IMG/VR virus record: IMGVR_UViG_3300031857_000091
Location: 1 to 64,000 of that record
DNA length: 64,000 nt
Strand: one strand, 5' to 3'
Source: a virus
Shown piece after piece: positions 1-63,785 of the stretch. The notes beneath the pieces were generated by a model, which saw only the letters and a program-made list of their open reading frames with translations, had not been told where the DNA came from and did no database searches. Each line of letters opens with the position of its first letter. Position 1 is the first letter of the stretch. The translations under genes and the position numbers were made by a program.

Positions 1-3000
1 TTCTCTTTGAAAAAGTAAAAGGGTTCTTTCATCAACAAGAGCATTAATTTCTTTACTGTTATCTTCGCCTTCTTTTTTAGTTTCAATAGTCAGCCTATTA
101 ATGCGTGCCGTTTTTTGCTGAATTTCTTTCTCTAAGTCATCAACAGAAAGCCCTATGGTTTTTTGTAACTCTTCTATAGATTTAGCAATAGATTCTCTTC
201 TACGAAGCAACTTATCTTTGTTTGTTATAACAAAAGAATCTGCGGTTGCATCATTTTCTAGTGTAGGGAAAGGAAGGTTTAGTTTATCATCAACGGTCTT
301 AAGTTCTTTCTTCAATGTCTCTATCTGTGCTTCTAATGGAGTTAATCCAATCATCGTATCGCTACCTGGAGTTAATGCCCTTTGTTGCTCAAAGGAATTG
401 ATTTGAGACTGTAACTCTGCTCTACGTTGGTTTAAGCGCAGTTCTGTCTCCGTATAATCAATAGACTCAGCTCCCATCAATAAATTAATTACAGCACCGG
501 GTGCAGCTGATACCCCAGAACTTCCAGCACTTAATCCGGGAGTGTATTTAGAAATATCCCTAAACAACTTTACTGTTTCAACTAGACTTTCATTTAAACC
601 AGGTAAGTTTTCTTCTCCTCTAAACGCATTAGTCATTTGGTTAACGACTTGCCCTACAGAGCTTCTTTTGCCTAGTTTTTCTCGTTTTTGTTGAACATCA
701 GCTAATTGACTATCAACATCCCCTAGCTCATTTTTTAATCTTGTTAATTCATCAAAAGTGTTAGTTGTATCTAGTTGAAGATATAGTGTTAAATAATTTT
801 CTAAGCTTTTTCTTTCTTCAGCTAACTTATCTTTTAATGAAATTAACTCATCAAAACTCGTTGGTTGATTTTCTTTTCCTACTTGGCTGGTCAATACATT
901 CCCAAGACCAGATAAATTCCCCTGGTCAAATAAAGAGCCTCTAGACTCACTAAAGTTATCTGGCAACAAAGGCAAATCTCTACGATAAGCAGTAGAATCT
1001 ATCCGTTTTTGAATCATGCGGATAACGTCATCAGTAGTAAATTTTTCCTGGTCTTTAGCTCTCCAAAAGGTTAAATTTAATCCTTTGTCTTGGAACGGAG
1101 TATCTCTGACTCCAGCTTGGTCTAATTGAATAATCTCAGTAGTAATCTCTATTTTTCTATTAGTCAGATTATCTAGATTTTTATTTAGCCCTTCTAATGC
1201 TTTAACACTGTTGCTTAACTGACTAAGGAAACTATTTGTACTGGTTGATTTAAACGCCATCAACACTACCAAGGTAGCTAATCCTGCTAATAATAGATTT
1301 AATCCAGAGAACCCTAGGGTCAACATACTTAAAATAGACTTTCCGGTTTTCATGCTTATTAAAGCAGCCTTGAATTTTCCTCCAAATACTTTAAAGGCTT
1401 CACCCGCTTTAAATACTTGTTCTCCAATTATTCTTAATAAAACCATTGTTTGTATCATAATTGCAAACAATGAGAAGAATTCTAAACTTGCACGAGCGAT
1501 CGCTTTTCCATTAAAGATAGAAGCAAATCCGTTATCATTACTAGATTCTCCCTTGGTTGCTGTCTGAGGAGTTTCTGCTTGAGGTGCGTAAATTTTACTT
1601 ATACTATTGTCAGCAAGTTTATTAATAAGTCGTTCAGCATCTCCTAGCTTTTTAATAAACCAAGTTAACTCGTCTACTCCCTCACCAATGTTAGAACGAA
1701 TGGCTATACCAAGATTTAAGAATGCTTCTGCCGCGCTTTTTACCCCTATTGATATTGAGCGAACAATATTAATTATTCCTTCCATGACTTGTTTAGGGTC
1801 TTTAGACAAGTCTATATAGGTTTGAATAACACGCCCTACAAGAGTACTGAAAAACCCAGTAAGCATCTCGACTGCGTTATTGATTTCAACTCCCAATATT
1901 TTGGCTAAAACCGTTCCTATGATTTCTTGGAACAATCCAAATACAAACGGGATAAGTACTAAAGACATCTTGCCGTATCCACCAGATAACGCTTTAGCAA
2001 GAGCCATAGATAAATCTAGTTTACTGAAGATAAAAGCAGTTCCTGCGACAATTTGTGCTTGTATTCCCAGAATGGCATTAAACATTAATCCGCTTTTGAG
2101 TAAAACATTGTCCATCAGCCAAAGAACTGCATCTAATGCTGTTGCTGCTGCGTTGGCAATTCCGGCAACGATTCCACCAAATTCGTCGGTCATTAATCGA
2201 CGGAAGTTGAATAATGAGTTTTCTATCTTATTTAATGTCCCCAAGAAACCCTTACTAGCTGCTTTTGCTCCTGCTCCATATTCTTCCTGGAATGCTTTAG
2301 CTAGTTTAGGTAGCAAGATATTAGAGGAAATTTCTCCTCTATCCAGAGTTGCGCTAAAATCAGCAACAGTCATACCCATTGATTTAGCTGCTAACTGAAT
2401 AGCCCCAGGTAATCTCTCCCCTATTTGACCTCTCAATTCTTCTGCTGCTACCTTTCCTTTAGAGATAACCTGTTGAAATGCTAGGAATATTAAGGAAGCA
2501 TCTTGGGCATTTAATCCCAGTGCAGCCATGGCTTGAGACACCCCTTTAAATAATTCCTCTGTATCTTGTCCCTCTAACTTACTTCCCTTGGAAGCTGCTG
2601 CTAATCGAGAAAAACCTTCAATACTAGCTAGTAAAGGCGTATTGTATTCTTGTGCTACTTGTGCTGCAAAGTCAAGCATCTGTTGCCCACTTTCTGGATT
2701 TCCCCCAATAGTCTCAAATCTGGTTTGAATAGGAGTCATGGTGCGCATTGTGTCAGCAAGCATTTGCCCAATAGGAGCTAGTTGGTTAACTGCTGCTGCT
2801 ATGGGAATTCCTAAAGCCGAAACAGAAGCAATCACTGGCGCTAACGCAACACCTATCGCCCCGGCTGGGAAGAAAGCAGAAAGATTAGCAAACATATAGC
2901 CACCAGCTTGGTCAGCTAAACCTCTAATATCATCCTCACTCATTCCAGCGTCTTGCATTTTTTTGTTAAGCCGGGATTGCATATTATCTATTGCGTTCTC

Positions 3001-6000
3001 AAGCTTTGTCCCTATCTTTTCTCCAATAATGACAGCTCTCGTTTTTTCTTTTTCCCCACCCTGTTCTTTTTTAGTTTTTTTGTTGTCTTCGGTAACACCT
3101 CTATATAAACTGTCTATAGTAGACATAGATTCTGCCCCTAGATTTAACTCTGGGCTTACAGATGCTCCTAATTGTGCAGCTATGTTATCCAATAAAACAG
3201 TAATTCTTTCAACGCTAGCCTTAATTGCTTGTAATATGGTTTGTGCCTTATCTCCCATGCCAGAATCTGCGAACAGAACAGAGTCATCTTGCTGATTATC
3301 TGAAGCAATAGTAGGCAAGGGAAAGCTTGTGTCTGGAGATAAGGGAGGTTCAATGGAAAGACTAGAAAGTGAAGTATCTAGTAACTCAGGAGTTTCTTTA
3401 GTAATTATGTCTGGGGTATCAATTGTTACCAGACTTGCCAAGTTAGTGTTAGTCGCTTGGGATGAGATAGTTTTATATGTTTTCCCTAAATCCTTAATCC
3501 CTTTATCTAGGCTTGATATTGTTTTTTCCTTGACAGCCGTACGAGAATCTAGAGATTTATCAGAATTTGCTACATTAGCTCGAGGGAGAATATCTGGTAC
3601 TTTTTCGCTTAACCCATAAAACACATCAGCTAAATTTTGAGCAAACACTTCAGCGTCTACCTCAAGTGCTTCAATCCCTTTGGATAAAGCCCCCGGTTGA
3701 GTCATTGCCAAGCTAGCGTCTACTTGTTTGCTGACTTGTTCTGCTTTGGATGGGTCAAGTAAGTTTCTCTCTGTTTTAAGATCAATTTTTGCATTTTTTC
3801 CAATGGGGAGAGAACTACTATCTTGTGCTATTGCAGCAACAGCATTGATATTATTTTTCCCAAAGGATAACTGCATAGCGTGTCGTAATTCATGCGCTAT
3901 GGTAGTAAATGCTTCTTTTGAAACGCCTTTGGATGAAGACACCATTTTGGCGATATCTGAGCTTAATGTGACCTGATTATCTTTAACAGAATAGGCACTA
4001 GCCCCTTTCAATTTATTTTCAGAGTCAATACTTACCTGTGGGAATAATCCTGCTTTGTCTATTTTGGATGGATTTAACCCAGATACTCTAAAGACTTCAT
4101 CAGCGATCGCTTTAAAGTTTTTATTTAACTGTTCCATTTCTGTTGTAGCAGAAGTATTCCCACTGTTTTTGGCACTAGCCTCTGCAAAAGCTTGTGGATT
4201 AGAAACGTATAAATCGATAAAATCTAGTTCTGCTTGTTTTTGCTCTTCTTTAGATAATCCGGAATCTTTTGTTACTTGTTGAGCTAATTTAGTAACAGAC
4301 TCCAAATCTACAGCATTTTGTGAAGGATTTATAACTTTTTTTATATCAGTTTTATTTTTTTCTCTACCAATAAGAGATGATTTTTGGGACAAGTCAACAG
4401 AATCTATCCCAGAACTAGAAGAGCTTTGTTTGAACCCGTCTACTATTTTGGGGACAACATCTGCAATTAGTCTGCCAATAATAAGACCAGTCAATAATAC
4501 TGGAAGCTTGGAGAATAAAGATTCAAACAGCCCCCCACCGGATATATCTTCACCCTCGCGTTTTTTGCCAGTATAACGAGCAAATCCTTCATCTATTTGC
4601 CGTCCTTTGGCTCTAGTTTGATTTGTTAAGCTTTCAAATAATCCTCTAACTATTTTTTCTTCTAGGGGCTTTTGACGAGTGTCGCCTTGTATTGATGATT
4701 TTATAACACCTTTAGAAAAATTAATAGCAAATCGTTCTAATAAACCTTTAAACATTTTTCCTACAAAAGATTCTTGATTGTCTTTGTTGGAATTTAATTT
4801 AAATGTGGATTTTATAACATTTGTAGCTAAATTACTAGCTACCTGCTCAAGTGCTCTTTTAAATACTTTTTCTGGAAAAGATTCTTGAGTTTCTTCACTG
4901 GATCTAGACCGTCCTGGAAATTTCATCAAATTTTCTGATAAAACTCCAACAGCAGACCCGCCAAGTAATTTTAATAAATTTATCCCACTTGATTTTAAGC
5001 TTTCTGAAATATTACCTGATGCAAAACTTTCTTTAGCTTTGTCCACAATGGCATTATTGCCTAAAGATGGTTTTTCGCCTGGAATCGGGGATCTAAATAA
5101 CTTAGCTAAGTCTTCATCAGAAAGACTTGCGTAAGGACTTGGTTGAGATTCGGAAGAAACTTTAGTAGAGTTATTGACACTTAAGTTTTCTATTAACTGA
5201 GCAAGTTCTTCATTAGAAAGACTTGCGTAAGGACTTGGCTCAGGCTGGGGAGGGACATTGGCAGGGTTACTGAATAGAGACTTAACCCTATCGCTTAAGG
5301 TCACATTTTTATCAGTTGTAAAAACTTTACTTAGCTGAGGAGCTAGTTTTTGCCCTATCGCAACAGTTACAGCTCCAATTAGAGCCTTAGTTAAGGTAGA
5401 TTGCAAACTGTCAACAGAGACCTTTCTCTCAATATTTGATTTCCCCGGGAAAACATTATTTAATAACGAAGTTCCTAGCTTAGCTACAACCAATCCGGCA
5501 ACAGCAATGGGTAAAGCTTTTTGGATAAATGTAGCCAAATCGACTTGTACTTTATCTTGCCCCTTATTGTCTTCGCCTGAGAGTTTTTGCTCACTTGCCT
5601 TACTTGGTTTTTCTAATTCAGCCCATGGGTCTGGGATATCAATTGAAGAGTCACCCATCATGTTTAGAGGAGAGATGGTGACGAAATCTTGCGCATCAAA
5701 TGCAAATTCAGGAGACGCTTGGGTTAACTTATCATCCCATATATCTGGAAGCATATCAGCCCTAAACAAAGACTCATTATTTGATGGATTAGTTCTGGCA
5801 TTAATTTCTGTTTGAACATTTCCTAAGAAGTCTTTAACTGCGGGTACAGATTCTCCACTATTAATCAACCCTCCCATAGTATTAATTAACTGTCCTATGG
5901 ATGCAAGTAGTTGCCCTCCTAGGTTGTTGACTTTTTCTAACACGGATTGGAGGCTATCTATTGCACCGCTATTATTTACTTGTTGTTGAAGGGATTGGAG

Positions 6001-9000
6001 TTGACTTATTAACTCAGGAGGGATAGCATCTATGATTCTATTTTTTGCTGCACCAACAGCATCCCTGCCTTGACTTATTAACCCAGGAGGGATAGCATCT
6101 ATGATTCTATTTTTTGCTGCACCAACAGCATCCCTGCCTTGACTTATTAACCCAGGAGGGATAGCATTTATGATGCTATTTTTTGCTGCATTAATAAAAT
6201 CTCGACCTTGATTAATTCTGTTTGCAATAGCATCTCTTTGTAGGTTGGGGTTAGACCGTACCTGATTATAAAACTCTGTACCTGTTCTGGCTATCCCTTC
6301 CATTCCTTGAGCAGCAAAACGAACACTATCATTAGCTGCTGTTTTACCAATATTTCTAAATGAATCAGCTAACTCAGGATTTATAACTTTTAATAAATTT
6401 GCAAAAACATCAAGATATTGAACAAAATTAGTTACATTATTAATCCACCCAGTATCAGGAACTCCTACAGCCTTTGAAGCATTAATTGCAAAATCTTTTA
6501 ATCTAGTATCAAATATATTAGAAAAATCTTTATTAAAACTAGCTCCAAATCCCTTTATTTCATTAACAATTCCTTCTATTTTGCTAGACACTGGATCTCC
6601 GCCTAGTTGCGATGATGACTCGTTGACAAACTTGTCTCCACTTAATCTCTCAATATTTGTTCTGTCTCCCTGAATTCCTTCTCTGAGCAAGACATTAGAT
6701 TCATCGGAAGATTGAATTAACTCTGTAAGCAATGACTCTGTTTTGTTTTTTGACTCTTTGCCTGTATTGCCACCACCGGAAGCTCTAAATAATTGGTCAA
6801 TCTCAGGAATATCAATGGGAGTACTAAAAAGTTTATCTGCTAGATTTTGAGCAAATACTTCAGCATCAGTATTAGCTGCTGTAAACCCTTTTACAGTAGT
6901 ACTTGACATCTTATTATTTGTTTCTTCGTATATAGCGTCTCCAATGTTGTTTTTGACTTCAGATAGCTTTGGCTGCGACTTATCTATCAAATCGTCTTGT
7001 ATTAGTCGAGGTATTTTTACTCCCTGAAACATAAAGCCTTTGTTTGTATTGGCTCTGTTTTGTTTTCTTCGATAATCTTTATCGGTAAACTCACTTTGAA
7101 TAGCTTTTCGTAATTCCCTAACAATTGGGATAAATGAATCTTTACTAATATTATTCCCAGAAGATAAATCTTTAGCTATACTTTCTGAAACAGCGATTTT
7201 ATTAGCTTTGCGATTATATTTACTGCCTCTTGGCAGGTTTTCGTCAGTATCAATATCTAGCTGAGGTAATTTTCCTGCTTTAGCAATTTGTTGTAATGAA
7301 ATACCTATTTCATTAAAAACGTCTTCAATTATGCGAGTAAAGTTGCTTGCTAATTTGTCAGGTTCAATCTTAGGTATTTCAATTGGGGTAGATGGAACTA
7401 TTTGAGCAATAATATCTTCAAAAGATACGTCTGTATAGTCTGATGCTGACGGTAATAAATTATCTAAACTTTGTCTTGATACAGTTTGTCCTTCATCATC
7501 AAATGATATCAATGATACTTCTGCTTGTATTTCTTCTAATATCTGGTTTGTTGTCTCTATTTTGTCTGCAACGTATTCTAAGACTGCAATCATCTTAATA
7601 GGTTCTGCTAGCCCACCTTCTAATTGCCGTTGCTGGTTACTGCCTCCTAAGCGCCGTTGTTCAGTTATATCTTGATCGCCTGCCTCGATAGCCCCTACGA
7701 TTTTATCCAAGATAATATTAGATGCAGAAATATTCCCTGCTATAGTTTCCAGAACAGCAGTCATCCGTATTGTTTCTACTTCAGGAGCTGAATCAAGTTG
7801 TGCTTGAGCACTAGGTTCAGCGATCGCTGGATTTAAAACATCTAATTTTTTACTGATTTGAGATAGTGTAGACCCCAGTAAAGCCGGATCGTTAGCAGCA
7901 AACCCTTCTCCAAAAGCCGTCGTAGCAGCCGATGCCGGGTCTGATTGTCTAAACACATTGCCAGTAATTACTCCCTCAGCTAACTTGGCAGCTCCACCAG
8001 CAGACTGGTTAATTAATACAGCTCCCAATTTTTCTACCGCGCCGCCTATTAAAGATTTAAAAAAATCAAATTGCAGTTGTGCAATAACTTCTGGGAATAG
8101 TTGCCCGGTTATTTGTCCTAGTTGCGTTGTCAAGACTTCTTGTAGTCTGACAATCACGGAAATTAACGAAGATATGCCAGAAGATATGGTACTTCCATTG
8201 TTGTTTCCACCATCTTTTTCCCCTGTATTCTTTTGACTATTATTTGAAATATTGTCTAAAATTTGTTTAGTTAAATTTGCTAAAGCAGTTTCTAATAGTT
8301 CAATAACAGAATCTTGTATCTCTGTTAATATTTCATCTAATGAATTAGCAATAATTTTAGTAATATCTAATGATACTGATTCTATTATGGCTTTTGTTGT
8401 AGAAACTAATTCCGTAAAAGAATTATTAGCAATATCTGTAATTTCTTGAATACCAGAAAATTGATTATCAAGTGATTCTATCGATTGATTAATATTTGTG
8501 CTTATTTTATCAATAGCATCTTGCACTAATGGAACAATATCAGTAGAATTTTCACTTACAGACTGATTTGTTCCTGCAGTTGCTTTAGCTCCAGATATTG
8601 TTGTCTCACCAGATAAGTTGGTTGGAGTTAATGGCTCTTTCTTTTCTGATAATTGATCAGAGATAGTAGATAATACTGCAACAATATCTGTTAATTGATT
8701 AGTAATTTTTTCTCCAGATTCTTTGACTACAGTATCTAATGTTGAGTTTATTGGAGCTGAGCTTACTTGCTCGCCTTCTTGTGTTTTTGAAGCTGGAGAT
8801 AATCCGTCTAATGCGCCACGGATTGCCTTTACTTCCCCCAAGATTTCAATCAAGTTATCATTGACAACATCTATTAACCCAAATGTTTGATTAAATTTTT
8901 CATTTGCTAAATCAGATAAAACCCCAAAATCTATATTTTCTTCATTTTCTGGACTTTCAAAAGATTTAGGAGATGATTTATCGGATGACTGCTTAGATTC

Positions 9001-9144
9001 AGTGTCTTGCGTTAATTGCTCTCTGTCTACTCCAATCTTAAGCTTATAAGCATCAAGCTCTTTTTGCATTTCTTGAAGTTGCTTGTCAATGTCAGACTTG
9101 TCTAATTGAACCCCTAGAGTAATTTTTACTGAACTTTCTGGCAT
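1..9144 (-). CDS. Tape measure protein (tail length, partial at 3' end)
   Basis: The reading frame stays open from an ATG at 9144 to the window edge, giving 3048 visible codons. The N-terminus is a coiled coil. Around residues 2136-2285 is the classical tape-measure domain (QTRFETIGG, then an EELRGQIGERLPGA-type segment), followed by hydrophobic segments and a further coiled coil. Two paralogous blocks near residues 620-700 and 1690-1770 resemble a zincin metallopeptidase; the second keeps HELRH at 1751-1755 and the first has RELRK at 676-680. The motif PSPYASLS occurs twice near residues 1300-1350. Tape measure proteins set tail length and are ejected with the DNA. Its size suggests a long siphovirus-type tail. 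The C-terminus is outside the window. Confidence 0.93.
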   Translation of the reverse strand, partial: MPESSVKITLGVQLDKSDIDKQLQEMQKELDAYKLKIGVDREQLTQDTESKQSSDKSSPKSFESPENEENIDFGVLSDLANEKFNQTFGLIDVVNDNLIEILGEVKAIRGALDGLSPASKTQEGEQVSSAPINSTLDTVVKESGEKITNQLTDIVAVLSTISDQLSEKKEPLTPTNLSGETTISGAKATAGTNQSVSENSTDIVPLVQDAIDKISTNINQSIESLDNQFSGIQEITDIANNSFTELVSTTKAIIESVSLDITKIIANSLDEILTEIQDSVIELLETALANLTKQILDNISNNSQKNTGEKDGGNNNGSTISSGISSLISVIVRLQEVLTTQLGQITGQLFPEVIAQLQFDFFKSLIGGAVEKLGAVLINQSAGGAAKLAEGVITGNVFRQSDPASAATTAFGEGFAANDPALLGSTLSQISKKLDVLNPAIAEPSAQAQLDSAPEVETIRMTAVLETIAGNISASNIILDKIVGAIEAGDQDITEQRRLGGSNQQRQLEGGLAEPIKMIAVLEYVADKIETTNQILEEIQAEVSLISFDDEGQTVSRQSLDNLLPSASDYTDVSFEDIIAQIVPSTPIEIPKIEPDKLASNFTRIIEDVFNEIGISLQQIAKAGKLPQLDIDTDENLPRGSKYNRKANKIAVSESIAKDLSSGNNISKDSFIPIVRELRKAIQSEFTDKDYRRKQNRANTNKGFMFQGVKIPRLIQDDLIDKSQPKLSEVKNNIGDAIYEETNNKMSSTTVKGFTAANTDAEVFAQNLADKLFSTPIDIPEIDQLFRASGGGNTGKESKNKTESLLTELIQSSDESNVLLREGIQGDRTNIERLSGDKFVNESSSQLGGDPVSSKIEGIVNEIKGFGASFNKDFSNIFDTRLKDFAINASKAVGVPDTGWINNVTNFVQYLDVFANLLKVINPELADSFRNIGKTAANDSVRFAAQGMEGIARTGTEFYNQVRSNPNLQRDAIANRINQGRDFINAAKNSIINAIPPGLISQGRDAVGAAKNRIIDAIPPGLISQGRDAVGAAKNRIIDAIPPELISQLQSLQQQVNNSGAIDSLQSVLEKVNNLGGQLLASIGQLINTMGGLINSGESVPAVKDFLGNVQTEINARTNPSNNESLFRADMLPDIWDDKLTQASPEFAFDAQDFVTISPLNMMGDSSIDIPDPWAELEKPSKASEQKLSGEDNKGQDKVQVDLATFIQKALPIAVAGLVVAKLGTSLLNNVFPGKSNIERKVSVDSLQSTLTKALIGAVTVAIGQKLAPQLSKVFTTDKNVTLSDRVKSLFSNPANVPPQPEPSPYASLSNEELAQLIENLSVNNSTKVSSESQPSPYASLSDEDLAKLFRSPIPGEKPSLGNNAIVDKAKESFASGNISESLKSSGINLLKLLGGSAVGVLSENLMKFPGRSRSSEETQESFPEKVFKRALEQVASNLATNVIKSTFKLNSNKDNQESFVGKMFKGLLERFAINFSKGVIKSSIQGDTRQKPLEEKIVRGLFESLTNQTRAKGRQIDEGFARYTGKKREGEDISGGGLFESLFSKLPVLLTGLIIGRLIADVVPKIVDGFKQSSSSSGIDSVDLSQKSSLIGREKNKTDIKKVINPSQNAVDLESVTKLAQQVTKDSGLSKEEQKQAELDFIDLYVSNPQAFAEASAKNSGNTSATTEMEQLNKNFKAIADEVFRVSGLNPSKIDKAGLFPQVSIDSENKLKGASAYSVKDNQVTLSSDIAKMVSSSKGVSKEAFTTIAHELRHAMQLSFGKNNINAVAAIAQDSSSLPIGKNAKIDLKTERNLLDPSKAEQVSKQVDASLAMTQPGALSKGIEALEVDAEVFAQNLADVFYGLSEKVPDILPRANVANSDKSLDSRTAVKEKTISSLDKGIKDLGKTYKTISSQATNTNLASLVTIDTPDIITKETPELLDTSLSSLSIEPPLSPDTSFPLPTIASDNQQDDSVLFADSGMGDKAQTILQAIKASVERITVLLDNIAAQLGASVSPELNLGAESMSTIDSLYRGVTEDNKKTKKEQGGEKEKTRAVIIGEKIGTKLENAIDNMQSRLNKKMQDAGMSEDDIRGLADQAGGYMFANLSAFFPAGAIGVALAPVIASVSALGIPIAAAVNQLAPIGQMLADTMRTMTPIQTRFETIGGNPESGQQMLDFAAQVAQEYNTPLLASIEGFSRLAAASKGSKLEGQDTEELFKGVSQAMAALGLNAQDASLIFLAFQQVISKGKVAAEELRGQIGERLPGAIQLAAKSMGMTVADFSATLDRGEISSNILLPKLAKAFQEEYGAGAKAASKGFLGTLNKIENSLFNFRRLMTDEFGGIVAGIANAAATALDAVLWLMDNVLLKSGLMFNAILGIQAQIVAGTAFIFSKLDLSMALAKALSGGYGKMSLVLIPFVFGLFQEIIGTVLAKILGVEINNAVEMLTGFFSTLVGRVIQTYIDLSKDPKQVMEGIINIVRSISIGVKSAAEAFLNLGIAIRSNIGEGVDELTWFIKKLGDAERLINKLADNSISKIYAPQAETPQTATKGESSNDNGFASIFNGKAIARASLEFFSLFAIMIQTMVLLRIIGEQVFKAGEAFKVFGGKFKAALISMKTGKSILSMLTLGFSGLNLLLAGLATLVVLMAFKSTSTNSFLSQLSNSVKALEGLNKNLDNLTNRKIEITTEIIQLDQAGVRDTPFQDKGLNLTFWRAKDQEKFTTDDVIRMIQKRIDSTAYRRDLPLLPDNFSESRGSLFDQGNLSGLGNVLTSQVGKENQPTSFDELISLKDKLAEERKSLENYLTLYLQLDTTNTFDELTRLKNELGDVDSQLADVQQKREKLGKRSSVGQVVNQMTNAFRGEENLPGLNESLVETVKLFRDISKYTPGLSAGSSGVSAAPGAVINLLMGAESIDYTETELRLNQRRAELQSQINSFEQQRALTPGSDTMIGLTPLEAQIETLKKELKTVDDKLNLPFPTLENDATADSFVITNKDKLLRRRESIAKSIEELQKTIGLSVDDLEKEIQQKTARINRLTIETKKEGEDNSKEINALVDERTLLLFQRE
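6001..6207 (-). repeat. Three tandem 69-bp repeats inside the tape measure gene
   Basis: Three direct units occupy 6001-6069, 6070-6138 and 6139-6207. The first two are almost identical and the third has diverged. Each unit encodes 23 residues beginning GRDAVGAAKNRIIDAI and ending PPGLISQ, so the frame is kept. In-frame duplications in a tape measure gene would be expected to lengthen the tail slightly. Confidence 0.95.
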
Positions 9145-30411: not shown

Positions 30412-31358
30412 TAGTTATTGGTTATTGCTATAGGAAAATCTGCATACCTGATAGTTCTAGGATAATCAGCTTGAACACTAGAAACGCTCTTATATCCGTA
30501 GACATTATATTTCATTCCTTCTTGTACTGGAGACATGACGTACAATGGGGCAAAATGTCTAACTACGTTTTTGGATTGTAGATTTAAAAAGACTAATCTG
30601 TCTTTTCCTGTTCCAGATGATTGGACTCCATTAGCTTCAAGCTCTGCACTAGCTAACTCTGGCATAGGAACAACTATAGAAAGACTTGGTAAAGTTTTCT
30701 TTAGTGTATCCATGAGAGTATCCCCCACATTATCGCTACGAAAAGTCGTATTTAGCAACTTAAATAAAGTAGGAGGGACGTATAATGCGTTGGGCATCTC
30801 TACAAAGTTAGTAGAAGTCCACACTGCATAATATTCATTGGCAATAAAGTCAATGATGTTTTTTGAAGTTGCGTTCCCAGCGTATAGCTTGTAAGTAGAA
30901 GTGTTGCTTAATGTCACTTCTGGGTGATTGAGCAAGCCGTGCACTTGATGGGAGGGTAAACCGTAAGCGCATAACTGGTGGGATTTCACATCAATCATGC
31001 GACGCATTCCCATTAATCTCTCATCCTTGAAATTAGTCACTAATTGACCATTCTTAGAGGCAAATTCACTGGCTCTGAGTTCTGGGTCAGTATAAGAACA
31101 ACCTCCAAAAATATGAACGATACGGTATATATCTTTGCCTACAGTGACTTCAGACATGGGAATATCTTGAGCTGAGCCAGTCATAATAGATGCTTGACCG
31201 TAATGCCGAACTGTTTCTACAGTGATTGTTTCTGCCCCTACTGAGATATCTCCAATTTGAGGGCAGTACAATCCGTTATCTAAATACAGTTCTGGAAGTC
31301 TTTCGCGAAGTACGATAGGGAGCTTTTGCTCTAAATAATTTGATAAAATTGCTGACAT
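30411..31358 (-). CDS. Major capsid protein (DUF2184-like)
   Basis: 315 residues, matching the general pattern of the DUF2184 HK97-fold capsid proteins: an N-terminal arm, ...VGKDIYRIVHIFGG, an ELRASEFASKNG segment, then GLLNHPEV and a C-terminal VYGYKSVSSVQADYPRTI strand pattern. It sits between the cement-like protein and the head-completion genes, downstream of the protease and scaffold genes, as expected for the shell subunit. Confidence 0.75.
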   Translation of the reverse strand: MSAILSNYLEQKLPIVLRERLPELYLDNGLYCPQIGDISVGAETITVETVRHYGQASIMTGSAQDIPMSEVTVGKDIYRIVHIFGGCSYTDPELRASEFASKNGQLVTNFKDERLMGMRRMIDVKSHQLCAYGLPSHQVHGLLNHPEVTLSNTSTYKLYAGNATSKNIIDFIANEYYAVWTSTNFVEMPNALYVPPTLFKLLNTTFRSDNVGDTLMDTLKKTLPSLSIVVPMPELASAELEANGVQSSGTGKDRLVFLNLQSKNVVRHFAPLYVMSPVQEGMKYNVYGYKSVSSVQADYPRTIRYADFPIAITNN

Positions 31359-44888: not shown

Positions 44889-46130
44889 ATGTCAGAAAAT
44901 AGTAAGAAATATAGAATAAATAAAGACAGTCTAAGTCGGTTATTGTCTGAGTCTGGTGGGCTAGGGAATGGGCAGTATGACCCTCTAGAATCAATTATTA
45001 TTAATAAACCAAGAAAGTATACCGCAACAGAGTTAACTGATGCCTATAGAAGTATTTGGGCTTGTCGAAAGGTTTGTGACTTCTTGCCACGGATGATGGC
45101 GCGCGGATGGGGTAAGATAAACCTAAACCTCCCAACAAATATTGAACTAGAAAACAAGTTGAATAAGGATTTATCTTTACTTCGCCACAAATATAGAGAA
45201 GGGCAACGATTAGCTAATTTATATGGCGGTGCAGTAATTATCCGTATAGTGGAAGATGGGCGGGAATACTCTGCACCAATAAATAAGGAAATAACAAACC
45301 TGCGCTACTCTCGCGTTTTTACCCCGTGGGAAATATACCCTAGATTGGATGAAAGTGAAGATATTTACTCTCCTGAATATTATGAAATGAGTGCTTCTAT
45401 CGAGGGGCAAAAAACGGTATTTAAAATTCACAGCGATCGCATTATTCGCTTCAGTGGAGCGACTACAGATTACGAGTCAATGAGACTTAATCGTGGCTAC
45501 GAAGATTCTCTCTTAGTTCCATTCCTAGACCCTTGCCTAAGATATTTAACCGCAGTTAGTTATGTTGGCGCTTCGGTTAGTAGTTTTGAGTTTGTTATTC
45601 ATAAGCTACAAAATCTGTTCACCGAGTTGGAAAATGAAGAATCTCAGTTACATCTAGCAGAACGGTTAAGGGTTGCACATAACTCTCTTAGTGCGTTAAG
45701 GGGAATGGTTGTAGATAAAGAAGAAGAAGACGTGGCTGTGGTAAGCAGAAACTATGCGGGAGTCACGGAAATTATCGCTACACTGCGAGATGAAATGATA
45801 GCTGCTTCAGGGTTGACTAAACCTCAATTCATTCAAGAGCATCCCTCTGGATTAGCTGCTACAGGACAAAGCGAGAGGCTAGCTGAGGCAGATAATATTA
45901 GAGCTTTGCAAGAAGAAAAATGGGGACAATTGATAGAGGAAGATTGCCGATTGGTGTTGAAGAAGCATAAATACTCTTACAACAATTGGAAATGGGAATG
46001 GGCTAATCTCTTTCAATTGAGCCCGTTAGAAGAAGCAGAATTACATCAAATGGAGGCTAATTCAGATGCTATCAGGATTAGCTCAGGAGTTTTGACCCCA
46101 GAAGAAATAAAGAAACGGAGAGACCTTTGA
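44889..46130 (+). CDS. Portal protein (DUF1073-like)
   Basis: 413 residues. The N-terminal SIWACRKVCDFLPRMMARGWGK segment and the NLYGGAVIIRIVEDGREYS region match the DUF1073 portal family (HI1409-like). The protein ends in acidic helices. Portals form the dodecameric ring at the head vertex through which DNA is pumped. AGGA precedes the start codon. It is separated from the terminase by 11 kb, unlike most tailed phages. Confidence 0.8.
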   Translation: MSENSKKYRINKDSLSRLLSESGGLGNGQYDPLESIIINKPRKYTATELTDAYRSIWACRKVCDFLPRMMARGWGKINLNLPTNIELENKLNKDLSLLRHKYREGQRLANLYGGAVIIRIVEDGREYSAPINKEITNLRYSRVFTPWEIYPRLDESEDIYSPEYYEMSASIEGQKTVFKIHSDRIIRFSGATTDYESMRLNRGYEDSLLVPFLDPCLRYLTAVSYVGASVSSFEFVIHKLQNLFTELENEESQLHLAERLRVAHNSLSALRGMVVDKEEEDVAVVSRNYAGVTEIIATLRDEMIAASGLTKPQFIQEHPSGLAATGQSERLAEADNIRALQEEKWGQLIEEDCRLVLKKHKYSYNNWKWEWANLFQLSPLEEAELHQMEANSDAIRISSGVLTPEEIKKRRDL

Positions 46131-49955: not shown

Positions 49956-50417
49956 ATGGCTACTAATTTTTTGGTAGGGGGTGGCAACAAGGTAAGCGTC
50001 AAAGTAACGGCAATACCAGAAACTGTTGCAGAACCTCAAAATGGTGGATCTACTCTTTTATATGGTGGAACTCAAGCTGGATTCAATATCTCTGCTGACC
50101 AAACAGATTCTAAGGTTTTTGAAGACGAGCTAGGTTTTGCTTTTGGTGTAGTCACAGGTCAATCATGGGACGTTCCTTGGACAGCTAACCTTTTGACTGC
50201 TGACCCTGGGCATCAAATTTTAAAAGCAGCTGCAATCGGTGCTGTTTCTGGGAAAAAAGTCGGTATCACAGTTGAAGTCAAAAACCAAGCTCAGGCGACT
50301 ATTTCCAAGCTGGATGGAGTAGCTATAGTTACAAATTATTCAGAAGATTATCCTGCTGATGGAATCTTAACTTATAACTGCACCTTTACTGGTTACGGAA
50401 GTCCAACACTTAGCTAA
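49956..50417 (+). CDS. Major tail tube protein
   Basis: 153 residues with the beta-rich pattern of tail tube subunits: SVKVTAIPETVAEP at the start, ...GQSWDVPWTANLLTADPG, and GILTYNCTFTGYGSP at the C-terminus. The name is supported by pattern and by the presence of a tail. It is well away from the tape measure gene, which is unusual. Confidence 0.6.
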   Translation: MATNFLVGGGNKVSVKVTAIPETVAEPQNGGSTLLYGGTQAGFNISADQTDSKVFEDELGFAFGVVTGQSWDVPWTANLLTADPGHQILKAAAIGAVSGKKVGITVEVKNQAQATISKLDGVAIVTNYSEDYPADGILTYNCTFTGYGSPTLS

Positions 50418-57706: not shown

Positions 57707-59083
57707 ATGTTAATTCCCTCTATTGAAACTTTTGTTACCGAACCTTATCTAATAGGTAAAGATATCACCTTTCGCCCGATTCAAAAAGAAATAATATATG
57801 ACTTCTGGAATAAGCCCTACACAATGGGGGTATGGTGCTTAGGGAGAAGAAGCGGTAAAACCTTTTGTGCAGCGGCAAGCGCGGTTTATGCCTGTACAGC
57901 CTTAGCCCCTATCTTCAAGAAATATATTAGAGCCAATGAGAGTTATTATGTTTTATTCGTTGCCAATAATGAAGAGCAAGCAAAAATTGCTCTTGACCAA
58001 GTAAAAATATTCTTGGAGAATTCCCCTACACTGAAGATGCTGATAAAAAGCAATAACGCAACTTCAGTGACATTGAAGAATGGAGCTATTTTTAAAGCCG
58101 TCCCAAATACGGCTAAAGGTGTACGTGGTTACTCCGTGGCGTTGGCTATCTTTGATGAAGCTGCACACTATAGAACAGGATATGGGGAACAGACTGGGGA
58201 ACAACTTTATCAAGCGATCGCCCCATCTATAGCCCAGTTTGGTGACTATGGTCGGTTATTGATGATTAGTACCCCTTGGACCAAACAAGGGATATTTTAT
58301 GACAACTACCAAAAAGGTTTATCTGGACAATACCCAGAGATTCATGTAGCTAATTACCCAACATGGGAAGTCAACCCCACTATCTCGGAAGCTTTTCTAG
58401 CCTCAGCAAAAAAACGAGACCCTATCATGTATGAGGTTGAGTATGGAGCTAACTTCTCGGTAGACTTTGCTGCGTTCTTGGATGTAGATAAAATTAGGGA
58501 GTCAGTTACTTTATCTGGCACAACACCTCCTCAAAAAACTTATCGCAACAAGTATTTATTGGCTCTTGACCCTGCCTTATCTGGAGATGCTTTTACTGCG
58601 GCGATCGCCCATCAAGAAGGAACTAAGTTAGTTGTTGACTATCTCCATGAGTTTCTTCCATCATTTCATCAAGGGAGCAAGAAGGTAGTAGACATTAGCA
58701 AGGTAGAAGAATGGATTATGGCTCGACACCAGGATTACGGGTTTAAGAAGATAGTTTTAGACCAATTCCAGAGCGCTTCTACTATTCAGCGACTCAATGC
58801 AAAACTAGGCTCTAAAATTGCCGAATTAACCTGGACGCATAACAATAAAATCATTGCTTATGGCTATCTAAAGGAATTATTTAACCTCAATCAAATAGCT
58901 CTATACCCTCACGACAAAACTATTAGCCAGTTAACTAACTTGCAGGTTCATTACAATAAGTCGGGTTCTTGGACTGTATCTGGAGGAAGTGGACTGCAAG
59001 TAGATGATTATTGTTCGGTATTGGCTGCTCTAGCTTTCATTTCTAAGGACAGTAAGGATGTGGGGTGGTCAAAATATGCTTAA
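57707..59083 (+). CDS. terL: Terminase large subunit
   Basis: 458 residues. Walker A GRRSGKT (residues 46-52), Walker B AIFDEAAH (Asp150, Glu151) and the nuclease-domain Asp288 in LLALDPALSG are visible. The protein pumps DNA into the capsid and cuts it. No neighbouring small terminase is obvious, and no portal gene follows it directly. Confidence 0.93.
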   Translation: MLIPSIETFVTEPYLIGKDITFRPIQKEIIYDFWNKPYTMGVWCLGRRSGKTFCAAASAVYACTALAPIFKKYIRANESYYVLFVANNEEQAKIALDQVKIFLENSPTLKMLIKSNNATSVTLKNGAIFKAVPNTAKGVRGYSVALAIFDEAAHYRTGYGEQTGEQLYQAIAPSIAQFGDYGRLLMISTPWTKQGIFYDNYQKGLSGQYPEIHVANYPTWEVNPTISEAFLASAKKRDPIMYEVEYGANFSVDFAAFLDVDKIRESVTLSGTTPPQKTYRNKYLLALDPALSGDAFTAAIAHQEGTKLVVDYLHEFLPSFHQGSKKVVDISKVEEWIMARHQDYGFKKIVLDQFQSASTIQRLNAKLGSKIAELTWTHNNKIIAYGYLKELFNLNQIALYPHDKTISQLTNLQVHYNKSGSWTVSGGSGLQVDDYCSVLAALAFISKDSKDVGWSKYA

Positions 59084-61603: not shown

Positions 61604-61912
61604 TTAATTCGTAATAATCTTTAACCAAGTTTTCCGTAACTGCTTTGCCCCTGGGGAAAAGTTTTTATCATCTGCCAAAACATACTCCTCAATTAGAAAC
61701 TTGATTTGTTCTATGGCTTCACGCAATAACTTTTCTTTGGTGTGAGCAAAAACCGATAGCTCTAATCTTGGCTGATGAATAATCAACAAGGGGAGTCTTT
61801 TTTGATTATTATTTTCAACTTGCAGAAATAGCTCTAGTTCCGGCTTAAAAACATAAGTTTTGCCTTGTAGCTTGACACGGTCAATAGTAATGCAATCATT
61901 CTTGTCTAGCAT
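61604..61912 (-). CDS. Hypothetical protein after the tail chaperones
   Basis: 102 residues, basic and helical (HTKEKLLREAIEQIKFLIEEYVL). It overlaps the end of the T-frame by 17 bases. Likely part of the tail operon by position; no family recognised. Confidence 0.6.
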   Translation of the reverse strand: MLDKNDCITIDRVKLQGKTYVFKPELELFLQVENNNQKRLPLLIIHQPRLELSVFAHTKEKLLREAIEQIKFLIEEYVLADDKNFSPGAKQLRKTWLKIITN

Positions 61913-62603
61913 TAGGTAACCCTCTTACGACATTTGTCATCACCAAGTAATAGTTAGAGTAACTCATGGTAACGATGTTAGAGTCACTCTCTGGAGTAAT
62001 AACCCGAATAATGTTATCTGGATTATCAACAGATTTAAGTAACATAGATGTGTGTTCTTTTCTGTTGACTTCCCAAATAACCAAAAATCCACAAAAAAGT
62101 TTATAGCCTATTACCAGAGGGCACAAAACTAATATATTACAATCAACTCCGACAAACGCCCTGCTTTTGGCTATTCTTCCTTTATCTTTTAGCGCACTTA
62201 GTTCCTTGATAGGTAACACCCCAACCGCCCAATTAGATAACAGCTGATCTTTGACCAAAGAGAAAAAGGTAGTAGCTACATCTGGGCTAATATCTGAGGA
62301 GGAATCAGGTTTAAAGTAGAAGAAATCGGACGGCGTAACCCCAGAACCCTTCTTCGGGTCTCTGTTGGCATTAACAAAATAGCTGGTGAGTGTTGCCATA
62401 CCAAGCTCCTGGTAATGCAAGTCTTCCTTGTAAAATCTGTGTCCATATTCTAGTGCCTGAAAAATAATATTAATAGGTGTGTTGCCAAAGTTTTCATGGT
62501 TGAACCTAGAATCGTGAGGAAAGTACTTATGTACTCTCCAGAAAATCTCGACCCAATCAATATCTACGCTGCTGCTTCCTCCTCTACTTTCACCCCTTTG
62601 ATT
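61896..62603 (-). CDS. Tail assembly chaperone, T-frame (frameshift extension)
   Basis: This frame is open from the slippery site at 62602-62609 to a stop at 61896. In the first 68 codons it reads VDIDWVEIFWRVHKYFPHD, RFNHENFGNTPINIIFQALE and YGHRFYKEDLHYQELGMATL, all coding-like with no start needed. Expressed by -1 frameshifting it extends the 62564-63139 product to about 414 residues, as in the G/GT pair of lambdoid siphophages. Internal ATG at 62399 could also start a separate 167-residue protein, but the conserved part begins upstream of it. Confidence 0.75.
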   Translation of the reverse strand, partial: NQRGESRGGSSSVDIDWVEIFWRVHKYFPHDSRFNHENFGNTPINIIFQALEYGHRFYKEDLHYQELGMATLTSYFVNANRDPKKGSGVTPSDFFYFKPDSSSDISPDVATTFFSLVKDQLLSNWAVGVLPIKELSALKDKGRIAKSRAFVGVDCNILVLCPLVIGYKLFCGFLVIWEVNRKEHTSMLLKSVDNPDNIIRVITPESDSNIVTMSYSNYYLVMTNVVRGLPNARQE

Positions 62604-63139
62604 TTTTTTACTGTCACCGCTTCTTCAATATCATCCGTGTCTAACTCTTCTAGAGGGAGTCTTCCTCTATTCATTTCTTTTATGCAGAATATCTCTAAAT
62701 GTCTCAATAACCGAGTTGGGACTAAGTCAGGATTTCCTACGTCTTTTATTGTCCATTCTGCACACTCAGGACATCTGAACCTTAACATAACATATGCGTA
62801 AATAAGTCGTTTAATCCCTGCGTTTTCTTCTTGGACTCGGCGTAATCCCATTAGTCCTTCCATATCGCCTTTCATCAGTTTGGAAGCGTCGTTATTGCGA
62901 ACGGAATCCCAAACCTCTTCTACAGGAGTTCCCGTCTTTTCCGAAATATTATTTACCAACTTAATGAGCATTTGCTCAGTATCTGGCAATTCTTTTATTT
63001 CTTCATCAATCTTCATTTTCTCATTAGGAGTAAGGTCATCGTAACGAGGTAATGCAATTGTCCCAGACCGTTCATCTCCAATAATCACTAAATCTTGTTT
63101 AACAGGCTTAGTGACAAAAGGAAGTGATTTAACTGTCAT
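62564..63139 (-). CDS. Tail assembly chaperone, G-frame
   Basis: 191 residues, charged, with acidic helices (DEEIKELPDTEQMLIKLVNN and RVQEENAGIKRLIY) and a Cys-Pro-Glu-Cys segment (FRCPECAEW). The C-terminal VTVKKIKGVKVEEEAAA region contains the frameshift heptamer. In siphophages the G protein and its GT extension assist tape measure and tube assembly. The tape measure gene is not next to it, unlike most phages. Confidence 0.75.
   Translation of the reverse strand: MTVKSLPFVTKPVKQDLVIIGDERSGTIALPRYDDLTPNEKMKIDEEIKELPDTEQMLIKLVNNISEKTGTPVEEVWDSVRNNDASKLMKGDMEGLMGLRRVQEENAGIKRLIYAYVMLRFRCPECAEWTIKDVGNPDLVPTRLLRHLEIFCIKEMNRGRLPLEELDTDDIEEAVTVKKIKGVKVEEEAAA
62602..62609 (-). other. -1 ribosomal frameshift site (A AAA AAA)
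   Basis: Minus strand run of eight A residues read GTA AAA AAA ATC in the G frame. Slipping one base back lets the ribosome enter the open T frame, which has no stop before 61896. This is the canonical arrangement for tail assembly chaperones. Confidence 0.8.
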
Positions 63140-63215: not shown

Positions 63216-63785
63216 ATGTTATCTAACGAAGCTTTTGAAGATCTGGTAGAAGGTCTCATCTTTCAACAAAAAACTCGAGAAGAGATTTATAAAAAAACTA
63301 AAGCAAGTAAAGAAAAGATTGCTGAGACAACTAGGAATCTCCGTGATAGATGGTTAGACGAGTCTAGTCATAATTACAGCCTACAGTCTAATCTTGCTTA
63401 CACAGAAGCACAGATTAATTATTTAATCAAAGTAGCTTTTCATTCTTTCTTGCTCAGTCAACGAAGAAAAGTTGTTGTTTATAAGAACGATGTCACCAAT
63501 CAAAAAGGTCCTACAATAGAAACTCACCGAATTGAGCCTACTAATGCTGGCGATGTTTCTTTCTTGAGATTAATTCATGAACTTATTAAGCAAAGAATTA
63601 CACTTAACAAGTTAGATAAAATTAATTATGAGGGGAACGATTTAGACCCAGAAACACTCATGGAATTTTTTGAGTGGAAGGCGTTGGCTAGAAAGTCACA
63701 AGAGTTGGGAATTAAACAAGATTTAACTCCTCAGTTGTTAGAAGAATTTTTAACATGGCATCATCAACAACAAAATGCAAAGTAA
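63216..63785 (+). CDS. Hypothetical protein, possibly terminase-related
   Basis: 189 residues, basic and helical; the N-terminal half has a helix-turn-helix-like pattern (LIFQQKTREEIYKKTKASKEKIAETTRNLRD). It could be a DNA-binding protein; a small terminase is one option. It overlaps the next gene by 11 bases. Confidence 0.55.
   Translation: MLSNEAFEDLVEGLIFQQKTREEIYKKTKASKEKIAETTRNLRDRWLDESSHNYSLQSNLAYTEAQINYLIKVAFHSFLLSQRRKVVVYKNDVTNQKGPTIETHRIEPTNAGDVSFLRLIHELIKQRITLNKLDKINYEGNDLDPETLMEFFEWKALARKSQELGIKQDLTPQLLEEFLTWHHQQQNAK

Follow-up and report, generated by a model that had tools for sequence, protein, structure and literature searches.

Near its 3' end, an open reading frame (G) on the minus strand of a viral genome is overlapped by a long -1 frame (T) entered at a run of eight A residues, raising the question of whether T is expressed as a frameshifted extension of G or by another route. 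The locus belongs to the virus record IMGVR_UViG_3300031857_000091 (83,430 bases in total), of which bases 1–64000 were analyzed here (hereafter the window; Table 1). A sequence-only reading had compared the arrangement with the G/GT tail assembly chaperones of phage lambda. In the G/GT class, tail assembly requires a fusion made at low ratio; G binds the tape measure protein, T the tail tube, and neither product is present in the virion; the genes usually lie between or beside those of the major tail protein and the tape measure protein, although this is not required.

Table 1. Features of the G/T locus and of the presumed partner genes (positions are those of the window).
Feature	Position	Strand	Description
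G ORF	63139–62564	-	191 aa / 191 codons; predicted tail assembly chaperone from normal reading
Eight-A run	62602–62609	-	slippery heptamer A AAA AAA at 62609–62603, in the G frame
G/T overlap after slip	62564–62603	-	T frame reads as Gly/Ser-rich linker NQRGESRGGSSS; in L002, STQSSGGSGGNSS
T frame via -1 slip	61896–62603	-	235 codons + stop; ATG/GTG/TTG absent upstream of 62420
Small ORF	61604–61912	-	102 aa; overlaps the T end by 17 bases; present in L001 and L002
Major tail (tube) protein	49956–50417	+	PHROG 1407, E=4.4e-8; expected partner of the T domain
Tape measure protein	1–9144	-	PF20155 TMP_3, E=6.7e-29; runs off the record start; expected partner of G

The slip site and the start-less T frame

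The motif GTA AAA AAA ATC had been placed in the G frame at positions 62601–62612; its sequence and frame were borne out, and direct reading puts it one base away at 62611–62600 (minus strand), where it encodes V177-K178-K179-I180. The pure A AAA AAA heptamer is present as described, near the 3' end of G as is characteristic of the G/GT class and 12 codons ahead of the G stop. In the predicted structure of G (pLDDT 76, moderate confidence, with residues 160–191 at <50), the slip site sits within a disordered acidic C-terminal tail. As the AT-rich window of 64 kb contains 15 runs of at least eight A or T, the A8 run alone proves nothing.

A -1 slip after K179 enters the T frame, which is free of stops over the whole interval claimed and gives a fusion of 414 aa (179+235), as had been calculated; the remaining two frames across this stretch contain many stops. 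The earliest ATG, GTG or TTG in the T frame of the window is a TTG located 61 codons in, 47 codons after the G stop. The window was compared with two environmental relatives from other records, L001 (G 96% identical in the best segment) and L002 (79%). L001 contains none of these start codons until 112 T codons past the G stop, and in both the window and L001, T is a -1 extension of G lacking a start of its own, another trait of the class. The T frame had also been read as good protein sequence ahead of any possible start, and this was confirmed by codon-position comparison across the 48 T codons that immediately follow the G stop, where differences at first, second and third positions numbered 3/0/18 between the window and L001 and 4/1/21 between L001 and L002 (18–21 third-position against 0–1 second-position changes). 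NG86 estimates for the T codons just past the G stop gave dN 0.02 and dS 3.3 for the window and L001, and dN 0.03–0.04 for both comparisons with L002, for which dS was saturated and not computable. Strong purifying selection therefore acts on the T frame before any start codon is reached, and the sequence coding for conserved T protein lies out of reach of ordinary starts (over 112 codons in L001).

Between the slip site and the T domain, the -1 frame of L002 encodes SSGGSGGNSS, and the Gly/Ser-rich stretches of both sequences (Table 1) look as a linker joining two domains should. The predicted model of T (pLDDT 80, moderate confidence) has a beta-rich C-terminal half and opens with a helix at residues 17–27, which is encoded ahead of any start codon. 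Downstream, the small ORF (99–102 aa) that overlaps the end of T is possibly translated in step with GT; a search for a family match to it returned none.

A homologous family in cyanobacterial phages

A tblastn search of a phage collection with T matched eight records from Synechococcus and Prochlorococcus phages, namely S-CRES1, S-CRES2, S-CRES3, S-CBS2 (two records) and PSS2 (three records); G alone gave no match in the same collection, and no T homologues were found in species-representative bacterial genomes. In these isolates, homologous G and T genes (including gp015/gp016 of S-CBS2 and gp064/gp065 of PSS2) are related by the same -1 frame with a heptamer in the overlap; their annotations list two distinct proteins, hypothetical or tail assembly, and place the T start internally. 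The alignments of T to S-CRES1/2/3, S-CBS2 and PSS2 start upstream of those annotated T starts, which fall inside the homology region. In S-CBS2, S-CRES1 and S-CRES3, a G-like ORF comes first, followed by T, the gene of the major tail protein and that of the tape measure protein, interspersed with an HNH endonuclease and small genes.

The T-protein alignment recruited 46 viral loci, giving a testable set of 49 loci in 35 clusters with the window included (an alignment of G was dropped as a query on viral contigs, G being too divergent for patterns). All 49 loci and all 35 clusters have the -1 frame relation, and the G/T overlap of each contains an X XXY YYZ heptamer in frame, the frame change thus being kept in homologues as in the G/GT class. 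By cluster, the heptamers were AAAAAAG (18), GGGAAAG (13), AAAAAAA (2) and GGGAAAA (2); S-CBS2 and S-CRES1 use AAAAAAG and S-CRES3 and PSS2 use GGGAAAG, in contrast to A AAA AAA in the window. The pure-A form occurs only in the small lineage of the window, L001 and L002, with A8 also present in L001 and seven A residues followed by G in L002. In-frame heptamers occupied 53 of 811 positions in the overlaps as compared with 14 of 7761 (0.18%) in the body of G, a rate about 36-fold higher, and at the G-body rate a heptamer would be expected by chance in only ~3% of overlaps of such length. Together with purifying selection on the T frame, the in-frame heptamer at every locus is therefore above chance, unlike the A8 run taken alone. 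In 20 of the 35 clusters (L006, L008 and L011, for example) the heptamer abuts the G stop codon, A AAA AAG or G GGA AAG being followed by TAA or TAG, so that slippage would compete directly with termination.

The 33 T homologues all fall in PHROG 34388, listed as of function unknown, and two of them also match phrog_5297 (“tail protein”). In a comparison of T with tail chaperone families, the kind of check proposed in the sequence-only reading, weak matches to Pfam PF06223 Phage_tail_T (lambda gpT) were obtained for 8 of the 33 homologues (best E 0.0023); the window T scored 13.2 bits, below the curated cut-off of 25.9, and hhalign against the single lambda gpG and gpT sequences was not significant (E 0.51 and 0.34), with no demonstrable relation. 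Given these weak Pfam scores and the null lambda comparison, we do not place the pair in the sequence family of lambda gpT; it would work in the manner of G/GT, and its cyanophage homologues occupy the customary position. Fold searches of the PDB with the G and T models gave no significant match (a designed-protein match of G was discarded as a chance helical match), and the best viral fold match to the T model was C7F4B1 (177 aa), which we tentatively take to be the PSS2 homologue. No account of frameshifting in cyanophage tail chaperones was found in the titles and abstracts searched, which cover the literature in part.

Routes from G to T

The start-less T frame, its conservation at the protein level, the cyanophage homologues beside tail genes and the heptamer found throughout the family support the lambda-type proposal, and we estimate a probability of about 0.9 that G and T encode G/GT-type tail assembly chaperones, expressed by programmed -1 frameshifting in a siphovirus-like phage of cyanobacteria. 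From these features we infer slippage, its ribosomal origin, its rate and the chaperone roles as follows. Most ribosomes would read G and terminate at 62564, while a minority would slip back by one base on A AAA AAA, with lysyl-tRNAs on AAA AAA, and continue into T, yielding a 414-residue GT fusion joined by the flexible linker. On the lambda model, G would form a coat on the tape measure protein, and the T domain carried by the small number of GT molecules would bring in subunits of the tail tube.

The heptamer is most simply read as a site where two lysyl-tRNAs slip in tandem, but stuttering of RNA polymerase on A8 could also yield GT, through normal translation of mRNAs carrying an extra A. 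Bacterial polymerase slips efficiently on runs of nine A or T (PMC5009743), a length that A8 approaches, and the window site lacks both a stable structure downstream and a strong Shine-Dalgarno (SD) sequence upstream: folding downstream of the slip site did not exceed that of shuffled sequences (z -0.46; -0.43 for L002), and upstream SD pairing was unremarkable. Across the family, the mean downstream fold z was -1.34 and upstream SD pairing averaged -5.0 kcal/mol as compared with -2.65 kcal/mol in the body of G, a stimulator signal that is suggestive only, because the acidic G tails are rich in GAG/GAA codons. Against polymerase stuttering, however, the close relative L002 carries just seven A residues, and distant homologues have AAAAAAG or GGGAAAG in the exact phase for tandem slippage, where stuttering is not expected. 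Because homologues carry these two heptamers, a ribosomal mechanism is much more likely, and we regard transcriptional slippage as improbable. Similarly small odds are given to a combined scenario, in which, with the change from AAAAAAG/GGGAAAG to an unstimulated A8 in this lineage, transcriptional slippage accounts for some or all of the GT made, and the pair has left the tail operon to be expressed as a divergent unit of its own.

It is very unlikely that T is a separate protein made from its own internal start, with the A run being incidental. Database annotations do assign T a start of its own, and an AGGAGG-like stretch lies 10 nt upstream of a T-frame ATA in L001 and L002 or GTA in the window; yet initiation at ATA or GTA is very poor and the codon is unconserved, the window and L001 have no ATG, GTG or TTG before the conserved T codons, and the starts annotated in the isolates lie within the region of homology. 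Homologues with a conserved T ATG, the finding named beforehand as contrary to frameshifting, were looked for and none were seen; the homologues share no T start, yet all retain the heptamer. A homopolymer error of sequencing or assembly, with G and T really being one unbroken gene or two unrelated genes, is hardly credible and already contradicted since, error-prone as such runs are, L001 and L002 from other records differ in sequence and run length but show this frame relation, and the 46 further, mostly distant loci keep it too, many with the G stop directly after the heptamer.

Programmed frameshifting of the G/GT type is known from lambda, and the present case is ordinary but well supported in a family that is unannotated, its interest lying in a family-wide annotation correction and in the displaced position of the pair. 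The results point to a likely function and a corrected gene structure for PHROG 34388 and its G partner, which are at present recorded as unknown and with misplaced T starts, a correction that spans cyanophage isolates and environmental contigs (35 clusters in total). Within this one set of homologues, the slip site, the distance to the stop codon and the possible stimulators all vary naturally, which is useful for studying what determines the G:GT ratio.

Comparison with lambda and genomic setting

In lambda, G binds the tape measure protein and GT links it to tail tube subunits (PMC5009743). As in lambda gpG/gpGT, the window pair consists of two overlapping ORFs, the part of G that encodes its C-terminal tail carries, close to the 3' end, an X XXY YYZ heptamer for a -1 slip, and T would be expressed as an extension of G; the lambda heptamer itself, GGGAAAG, is also used by members of the cyanophage family. 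The window pair differs in that sequence homology to gpG/gpT was not detectable in the comparisons run, that its slip site is A AAA AAA inside an A8 run with the G stop 12 codons past the heptamer (5 in lambda), that T is 235 aa with the predicted beta-rich C-terminal half (the lambda T ORF having 144 codons), and that neither the tail tube gene nor the tape measure gene is near the pair.

This last difference also sets the window apart from S-CBS2, S-CRES1 and S-CRES3, where the pair immediately precedes the genes of the major tail and tape measure proteins, at or close to the position usual for the class. The window pair lies on the minus strand between terL (57707–59083) and a divergent small gene at 63216, a location between the terminase genes. 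The tail tube gene is ~12 kb away and the ORF with the PF20155 domain ~53 kb, in agreement with the earlier remark that the tape measure gene is far away. L001 and L002 have the same local order, with a tail tube gene in the same records at ~11–12 and 8.5 kb, respectively, which shows that the pair genuinely lies apart from the tail tube gene and was not misplaced in assembly. No tape measure homologues were found in the viral contigs; L001 and L002 have no tape measure match, which is uninformative as both fragments are incomplete. The window shows chaperone genes lying apart from those of their presumed partners. In the window and L004, genes for the head, the tail and packaging are dispersed over both strands and intermingled with genes of nucleotide metabolism and replication (tape measure at 9144, major head protein at 31358, portal at 44889, tail tube at 49956 and terL at 57707), with no single morphogenesis operon.

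Beyond the window, the same virus record carries a type I-B-like Cascade set (L004:8424–11916, minus strand; record bases 72424–75916) consisting of Cas6, Cas8b-like, Cas7b and Cas5b genes, with no Cas3, Cas1/2 or CRISPR array noticed nearby. Near these Cas genes, within L004:7509–8002, are three copies of a ~42-nt repeat, 64–100% alike and each ending in a GTTGACGGATGCG-like sequence, and a second repeat pair of 41 nt at L004 positions 7509 and 7664. Large proteins with repeated “ITGTPAQNNTLTATVSDVDG...YQWQSS” modules, which are probably virion surface proteins, are encoded after a small tail-terminator-like gene at L001:1–1500, L002:2–2530 and L004:830–3094.
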